A stretch of 64,000 bases of DNA from the NCBI GenBank assembly GCA_031272885.1, contig JAISSX010000057.1:186001-250000 (forward strand). The letters are read 5' to 3'. This stretch comes from Bifidobacteriaceae bacterium (lineage in GTDB: Bacteria > Actinomycetota > Actinomycetes > Actinomycetales > WQXJ01). The position numbers and the translations under genes were made by a program. The notes under the pieces were generated by a model. That model was not told the DNA's origin and ran no database searches. It saw only the letters and a program-made list of their open reading frames with translations. Positions 196 through 44,959 of this stretch are shown here, in pieces. Numbering within the stretch: the stretch's first letter is position 1; every line of letters starts with the position of its first letter.

Positions 196-321
196 GCCGC
201 CAGCCTACGGGAAGACCGCGCGGGCACTGCGAGATTCCGGCTCGGGGGCCGGGAGGCGCTGCGGGGTTACAGGGGACAGTCCCACGTAACATGCCGCACT
301 CCGTCACGGCATGCTACGCGG

Positions 322-657
322 GGCCGACCCCAGTAACCCCGCAACACGGGGCCGACCCCAGTAACCCCGCAACACCGGGCCGACCCCAGTAACCCCGCAA
401 CACCGGGCCGACCCCAGGAACCCCGCGTCACGCGGCCAACCCCCGTAACCCAGCAACCCGCGCCCTACCCCAGGCACAGAGCAACACCCGGCCGACCCCC
501 GCAACCCCGCTACACGCGGCCCACCCCAGTAACCCCGCTACACGGGGCCTCGCCCTGTCACGACGGAACACCGGGCCGACCCCAGTAACCCCGCAACACC
601 GGGCCGACCCCAGTAACCCCGCAACACCGGGCCGACCCCAGCAACCCTTAGGTTCTA
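322..657. repeat. 12-copy tandem array, exact 28-bp period, consensus GGCCGACCCCAGTAACCCCGCAACACCG
   Basis: GGCC anchor (or degenerate equivalent) at 322,350,378,406,434,462,490,518,546,574,602,630; no indels between units. Confidence 0.95.
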
Positions 658-13970: not shown

Positions 13971-15310
13971 GATGTCCTCCCCGCTCCGGTGGCCGCCGCC
14001 ACGTCGATCCAACCGTCATCCACGCTCGTCACCACACCGCCAATCGAGGCGTGGACCAAACAGCCGGCCTCGCTGAAGTCGACCCCGGCCACGACATCGC
14101 CCACCGCGACCTTGTCCCCCACGGCCACGCGCGGGGCGGACGGCTTGCCCACACCGTGCCGCAAGGCCAGGCGCACATGGTCCGGCTCGCAGGTCACCAC
14201 CTGGTCCAGGTGGGTGGGGTAGCCGTCCAACTCCCAGCGGTCGATCAACCGCTGCTGCGCGATATGCCGATAGTCGCGTTCCCGCGTCTGCTCCGGGTGC
14301 ACCGTCTTGTCCTGCACACCCACGCCCTGGGAGCGCAGCATGCCCTTGACGTAGATGTTCATCCGCCGCGGGCTGAGCCCCATGGGGCAGGCGTACATCT
14401 CACAAATGCCGCACTCACAGCACAACAGGGCGTCCAGCAGGTCCGGCGCGCCCTGCCCGGTGGCCACCGACCGCATCACCCGGTGTGGCCGCATCTGGTG
14501 CCCGATCAGGTAGCGCGGGCACATGTCCGTGCACAGGCTGCATTGGATGCAGATCGACTTGGCCTGGTTGATGACGTGCTCAATTGGCTTCTGGGAGAAC
14601 TGGATCAGCGGGTGATCGGCCGGCAGCACAATCAGCCCGCCATCGGCCTTGCCGTAGCCCAGCCCGGCCACCTCCGCCTGTCCGTGGCGCCGTCCCATCA
14701 TGGGCCCACCGCGCACGATGGCGTACGGCTCCACTGTGGCCCCGCCGGCCGCCGCGATCAGGTCCGCCGCCGTGGCGCCGATCGGCGCATCGACCAGGCA
14801 GGGCTGGGCCACCTCACCCGTCACGGTGACATAATGCCTGGTCACAGGCTTGCCCTGGGTGGCCCGGTGGATGTTCAGGGCCGTGGTGACGTTGACCACC
14901 ACGATGCCCACCTGCAGTGGGATGCCGCCCGGCGGCACGGTTTGGCCGGTGATCTCGTAGATCAAGACTTGTTCGTCGCCGGCCGGGTAGAAGCTGTCCA
15001 GCAGGAACAGTTCGATGCCACCACCCCGCTGCCCGATGGCGTCCTGTAGCGCTTTGACTTCGGCCGCGTAGTGGCGTTTGGTGCCGATCACCACCCGAGG
15101 GATGCCAAACGTCTCCCGGATCTGGACGACGGCGTCGATGATCTGGTCCGGGAAGGTGCGCATGACGTAGCGGTCCGAGGCCAGCAGCGGCTCGCACTCG
15201 GCCGCGTTGACAATCAGCAGGTCAACCTGGGTCAGCTTCTTGTGCGTGGGGAAGCCGGCGCCGCCGGCGCCCACCACGCCGGCCTCGAATACCTGTTCCA
15301 GCAGTCCCAC
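13967..15310 (-). CDS. pduS: PduS-like (RnfC-related) Fe-S flavoprotein / cobalamin reductase
   Basis: GVVGAGGAGFPTHKKL, NAAECEPLLASDRY, CIQCSLCTDMCPRYLIGH and CCECGICEMYACPMGLSPRRMN. Confidence 0.9.
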   Translation of the reverse strand: MGLLEQVFEAGVVGAGGAGFPTHKKLTQVDLLIVNAAECEPLLASDRYVMRTFPDQIIDAVVQIRETFGIPRVVIGTKRHYAAEVKALQDAIGQRGGGIELFLLDSFYPAGDEQVLIYEITGQTVPPGGIPLQVGIVVVNVTTALNIHRATQGKPVTRHYVTVTGEVAQPCLVDAPIGATAADLIAAAGGATVEPYAIVRGGPMMGRRHGQAEVAGLGYGKADGGLIVLPADHPLIQFSQKPIEHVINQAKSICIQCSLCTDMCPRYLIGHQMRPHRVMRSVATGQGAPDLLDALLCCECGICEMYACPMGLSPRRMNIYVKGMLRSQGVGVQDKTVHPEQTRERDYRHIAQQRLIDRWELDGYPTHLDQVVTCEPDHVRLALRHGVGKPSAPRVAVGDKVAVGDVVAGVDFSEAGCLVHASIGGVVTSVDDGWIDVAAATGAGRTS

Positions 15311-44360: not shown

Positions 44361-44451
44361 ACGCCTGGGGTACCGCCGGCTGCGCCGGCGTCAAGGTGTC
44401 TGGGGGCCAAGCCACCACTCCCCGAGCCTACCGGGCGGACAACGGCCCCTT

Positions 44452-44842
44452 GGGTAGAGACTTGTTGCCATCTGGAGGCCCCATCCTGCCCTTGGGTAGA
44501 GACTTGTTGCAGATTTTCGGGCCTGGAAGTGCAACAGCTCTCTACCCGAGGCCCCGATCAGGTGCCGCCGGTGCAACAACTCTCTACCCGGCGATCGTTC
44601 TAGGCCAAGGCGGCGCAGCAACTCTCTACCCCGGTGCCCGATGGCGTCCGCCCCGGCGATCCGGAGAGACTTCCGGTAGTCAACCAGGCCGAAAACGGCG
44701 ATCCGGAGAGACTTTCGGTAGCCCAAGAGCCGCTCATGGCCGATCCGGAGAGAGTTCCGGTAGTTCTGGAGCCTGAAAACTGCAGCAAGTCTCTCCGGAC
44801 CGTTCAAACGGGTCCAGGAACTACCGAAAGTCTCTCCGCATC
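44452..44842. repeat. array of ten ~17-24 nt modular repeat units, mixed orientation, ~42-bp phasing
   Basis: Forward 44452,44494,44658,44700,44742; reverse 44531,44573,44615,44782,44819; see findings. Confidence 0.92.
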
Positions 44843-44959
44843 GAAGTTGGGGTGCGGTTGACCCCAGGGGATCAATCGGCAAGGTCGGTGTCGCCAGGTC
44901 CCATGGCGTGACGACGCTCAGGACATAGGATTTGGTCACTCGATCCCCGGGAGTCACCG

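Follow-up and report, generated by a model that had tools for sequence, protein, structure and literature searches.

The array at positions 44452–44839 of the window (the whole stretch of 64,000 nucleotides analysed here) belongs to a repeat family which, as the best explanation of its sequences, appears to be a genus-specific, dispersed intergenic mosaic repeat of a kind not previously described. Cores of about 20 bp recur on a lattice of about 41.7 bp, or four helical turns, and we give roughly even credence to the reading that this mosaic element consists of putative double-stranded protein-binding blocks. Directly supported are the dispersal of the arrays, their strict geometry, the maintenance of spacing without that of linker sequence, their intergenic location, the copying of whole arrays and the absence of co-variation between arms.

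The window array and its relatives

The window array comprises ten units in two inward-facing blocks that are separated by a 47 bp step. The type-1 block has two forward and three reverse units, with the core GGGTAGAGA and CTTGTTGC on either side of the head/tail joint, and the type-2 block has three forward and two reverse units, with the core CCGGAGAGA and CTTCCGGTAG. A preliminary description had placed ten units at 44452 and 44494 (forward), 44531, 44573 and 44615 (reverse), 44658, 44700 and 44742 (forward, with a GAT lead-in), and 44782 and 44819 (reverse), and all ten are found there, the last two at about 44780 and about 44819. The figures in its list of spacings mixed unit starts with unit ends; measured from joint to joint, successive steps are 42, 36, 42, 42, 47, 42, 42, 36 and 41 bp. 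Two spacers noted as reverse-complement-like (44511–44530 and about 44764–44779) are the hinges of two separate inward-facing blocks. The layout is as follows.

44452–44468, forward: type-1 unit 1, GGGTAGAGA joined to CTTGTTGC
44494–44510, forward: type-1 unit 2
44511–44530, no strand: type-1 hinge, 36 bp joint to joint
44531–44547, reverse: type-1 unit 3
44573–44589, reverse: type-1 unit 4
44615–44631, reverse: type-1 unit 5
44632–44660, no strand: inter-block linker, 47 bp joint to joint, containing TGCCCGATGGCGTCC at 44635–44649
44661–44679, forward: type-2 unit 6, CCGGAGAGA joined to CTTCCGGTAG
44703–44721, forward: type-2 unit 7
44745–44763, forward: type-2 unit 8
44764–44779, no strand: type-2 hinge
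44780–44798, reverse: type-2 unit 9, probably hinge-specific, with a GCTGC tail
44821–44839, reverse: type-2 unit 10

The inter-block linker includes one copy of TGCCCGATGGCGYCC, which occurs at 17 sites in the window with at most one mismatch (for example at 15030, 44635, 61608 and 61675), where 0.08 would be expected by chance. A 28 bp tandem repeat of about 12 copies (GGGCCGACCCCAGTAACCCCGCAACACC) occupies window positions 321–647.

The genome is an incomplete metagenome-assembled genome (MAG) of 2.95 Mb in 81 contigs, from which array data were taken as targeted stretches around unit matches. The type-2 unit GGAGAGACTTTCGGTAG has 93 matches in it at up to two mismatches, against none for a reversed control pattern, and the type-1 unit GNAGAGACTTGTTGC has 85 against 7, so that the array is far beyond chance. 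Well over 150 units are spread over about 33 loci, which range from single units to two-block arrays; this count is approximate, as the end of contig C10 and the start of C11 look like overlapping ends of one array. Since several arrays sit at contig ends (those of C10, C11, C17, C18, C41, C46, C54 and C67), the family probably breaks the assembly, and its copy number may be underestimated.

The family is known from two MAGs, both incomplete. The second, from the same genus (Bifidobacteriaceae bacterium isolate Md513_bin16, the sister species), carries about 19 arrays built on the same grammar, all of type 2; the type-1 core has no exact match in that genome and no type-1 blocks were seen there. 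A termite-gut origin may be conjectured, since the style of bin name resembles one used in PMC11707648. Arrays are absent from 16 other family genomes and from the remainder of 396 genomes of the order, where there are only isolated one-mismatch hits. Among 394 sampled genomes of the class, a set that does not include the sister genome, two facing cores at a 36 bp hinge occur in this genome alone. A scan for phased repeats in four other family genomes, covering about 350 kb, found no comparable array (one stretch was read as N), and a repeat of 42 bp period in the family genome G004 is a different one and probably coding. BLAST against phage and plasmid collections gave no related match, and neither unit matched viral contigs; four viral-contig matches to the two-site geometry were unrelated sequences without arrays.

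Spacing and orientation

Each block follows one grammar: forward units, a 36 bp hinge, then reverse units, with 1–8 units per arm and same-strand steps of 41 or 42 bp. The hinge step measures 36 bp in 28 of the 33 blocks of this genome and in 15 of 16 in the sister species, while reverse-to-forward steps are mostly 47 bp. If the centre of the unit is moved 3 bp into the head, 234 of 242 steps become 41–42 bp (mean 41.76, about 4 × 10.4), which fits the constrained whole-turn spacing of a helically phased array; phase coherence at 10.4 bp is 0.91 in arrays of six or more units. The mixed orientation described earlier is not random, nearly every block running from forward to reverse units about the fixed hinge.

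The length of the linkers is held far more tightly than their sequence. Between linkers of equal length 42–52% of positions differ, but just 5 of the 184 same-strand steps fall outside 41 or 42 bp; the indel rate seen in other intergenic repeats of the same genome (0.087 indels per mismatch) would place about 17% outside, even with 1 bp indels ignored. This test of step length replaced gap counts from whole-array BLAST alignments, which are inflated by shifts between the 41 and 42 bp registers; its nominal P of 8e-10 is only indicative, because related arrays are not independent. Hinge and linker also sum to 83 bp (41 + 42), but this would be expected from a past inversion inside the lattice as well and is no proof of selection, so that linker length against linker sequence is the stronger point. 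Tandem duplication may account for part of the regular spacing, and the closeness of that spacing to four helical turns may be a coincidence.

A period of 42 bp is a multiple of three, and the reverse-strand reading frame at 44391–44957 accordingly carries YRKSLRI-like repeats. That the array encodes a protein with a 14-residue repeat can nevertheless be practically dismissed: a 41 bp step, found in 68 of the 184 same-strand cases, breaks the frame, the blocks invert on one strand, and three overlapping reading frames have no Pfam match. The repeats are a by-product, as had been supposed. No array overlaps a gene called by codon usage (with a home-made script rather than a standard gene finder). 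Neighbouring genes run in the same direction in 16 cases, diverge in 12 and converge in 3, as around other long intergenic regions, and a promoter or terminator role was rejected on this ground. The RptR repressor (PMC12255303), which shares the figure of 42 bp, is unrelated to the arrays.

The type-1 unit GGGTAGAGACTTGTTGC has no internal dyad, and the type-2 unit is only partly palindromic, with GGTAG overlapping the dyad. The unit at 44782 (unit 9), with a type-2 head and a GCTGC tail, had been taken for a chimera produced by head/tail recombination. This is probably not so, because the same unit type adjoins the hinge in the sister species, which showed no type-1 blocks: there it makes up 15 of 30 hinge-adjacent units but 5 of 82 elsewhere, and at 13 of 15 hinges a unit with a GGT tail faces one with a GCTGC tail, such asymmetry being the rule. 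The GCTGC-tail unit looks instead like an old hinge-specific form.

Arms, copying and mobility

Inverted blocks invite an interpretation as transcribed, structured RNA, BOX-like, in which each block folds into a long hairpin acting on neighbouring mRNAs. We consider this unlikely. Whichever strand is taken, the window array does fold better than its shuffled versions (z −6.7 and −9.0), but good folding is expected of any inverted repeat, and across 43 hinges the two arms of an array pair no better with each other than with arms taken from other arrays, and less well in the sister species. Of all classes of linker, those in opposite arms of the same array resemble each other least, 35 of 49 blocks have arms of different size (a contig end truncates some of them), the bias towards gene 3' ends is no greater than for long intergenic regions, and Rfam contains no match. 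The hairpin-RNA idea of the preliminary description thus loses ground, and it and the coding reading are disfavoured together because complementarity of the arms is not array-specific, the arms are mostly unequal and 41 bp steps break the frame.

Linkers at the same position are more alike across arrays (0.57–0.60) than linkers at different positions (0.48–0.53), and therefore the arrays spread as copies; judged by these linkers, they are copies of an ancestral array in which units were later gained and lost. Some pairs are 90–99% identical over 120–320 bp, some arrays have repeat sequence in common far out into their flanks, and in the sister species dimers of 83 bp (41 + 42) stand in tandem. 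Array positions mostly differ between the two species: two of about 17 sister arrays adjoin the orthologue of a gene that has an array beside it in this genome, and the site of one sister array is empty here.

Other repeats were noted as well. A 31 bp period intergenic tandem family (GGACTCGATGACC...ACCGGATCTGGC), about three helix turns, occurs near several of them (L096 5160–5300, L110 4692–4770, L115 4725–4780 and L086 2958–3060), and the family genomes G004 and G007 contain other, different 31 bp repeats. Palindromes of CCCGGGCTTGACCCGGGATCT are dispersed beside arrays in the flanks of L083, L086, L088 and L106, and a 22 bp tandem repeat, GTTACAGGGGACGGTTCCGGGG, is found in L092 at 2610 and 6205.

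The dispersed copies, the unlike positions, the empty site and the near-identical pairs all suit a purely selfish, non-autonomous mobile repeat of MITE or REPIN type, whose cores would serve a trans-acting transposase as recognition sites and whose arrays would have no host role. This is a serious but lesser possibility; it overlaps with the protein-binding reading, the difference being the identity of the binder. Against it, a Y1/RAYT transposase (PF01797) is present in 6 of 18 family genomes but was found in neither member of the genus, both being incomplete MAGs, and alignment of the empty site could define no clean termini or target duplication, since the flanks of the two species have diverged too far for that comparison. 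A lattice of many units, moreover, is not a known requirement of MITEs or REPINs.

Mixed orientation and mosaic units would also suit an integron- or invertase-like platform for site-specific recombination, for which we find no positive evidence and which we regard as very improbable. Orientation is non-random, with nearly all blocks forward then reverse about a fixed hinge; the linkers, of about 23 bp, hold no gene cassettes; and no recombinase was identified in the flanks of the window array, whose neighbours are a DUF6882 gene and PQQ/BamB-like genes.

A putative protein-bound lattice among known systems

Among the ideas of the preliminary description, that of multi-site protein binding fits best, spacing being conserved while linkers diverge. 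We favour it because such an array would be expected to keep its cores and their spacing while linker sequence varies freely, as is seen here. A sequence-specific protein would bind each core in its double-stranded form, and the copies, aligned on one helical face, would form a cooperative nucleoprotein block. Such blocks might help to fold the chromosome or to set its topology, a role suggested for BIMEs, or be used by a mobilising enzyme, and the arrays may have spread by block-wise copying, either through recombination or through a transposase acting in trans. More tentatively still, and with fairly low probability, the family may be a new class of chromosomal nucleoprotein element, in which a dedicated protein would structure or partition the chromosome from about 30 intergenic loci with genus-specific, four-turn-phased arrays.

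Interspersed repeats are usually recognised by a sequence or a hairpin, whereas the conserved property here is the distance between sites, a hint of a protein–DNA lattice obtained from sequence alone. Should there be a dedicated binder, the organisation of the chromosome could be put to the test in an uncultured actinobacterium. A purely selfish family would still be one of mosaic repeats for which no RAYT has been detected, and would bear on how REP-like repeats spread.

The earlier statement that no family with such a structure has been described stands insofar as none of exactly this structure was found in the open-access papers searched (motif comparison being by exact or near-exact matches in the sampled genomes), but the design is close to that of BIME and BOX elements. 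Phased protein-binding repeats are familiar from iteron and operator arrays, in which sites of about 20 bp lie at a whole number of helix turns. The arrays share this layout but differ in being scattered over dozens of intergenic loci and built of inward-facing blocks, and their binding is putative. In integrons, cassettes lie between attC sites, whereas here the linkers are cassette-free, and a look beside the window array identified no integrase. CRISPR repeats run in one direction with unique spacers; here orientation switches at the hinge and linkers are shared between arrays by position.

With REP sequences and BIMEs, which are reported to bind IHF, gyrase and Pol I (PMC2817692, PMC3733652), the arrays have in common the intergenic location, high copy number, mosaic units in both orientations and regular spacing, and type-2 tails end in GGTAG beside the palindromic hinge. 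However, a REP unit is a palindrome of 20–40 bp with an unpaired GTAG or CGTC tag, whereas type-1 units are not palindromic and GTAG is here no unpaired tag on a palindrome; BIME units alternate, while these stand in same-direction blocks with a single switch; and no RAYT was found in the genus (two incomplete MAGs). The hinge with its two flanking units resembles a REPIN in being an inverted doublet able to fold (PMC3116915), but is always embedded in a longer lattice, is heterotypic in most sister-species arrays and again has no RAYT found with it. BOX elements of Streptococcus pneumoniae are likewise modular, intergenic, variable in the number of internal units and confined to one lineage (PMC3049150), but their end modules are distinct and pair as RNA, whereas one kind of core is here inverted about a hinge without co-variation of the arms. 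As the defining tests for REP/BIME (a palindromic tagged unit, alternating orientation and a RAYT) and for BOX (an RNA with paired ends) failed, the best reading is that the arrays are a new variant among bacterial interspersed mosaic repeats in the wide sense, rather than a member of either family.
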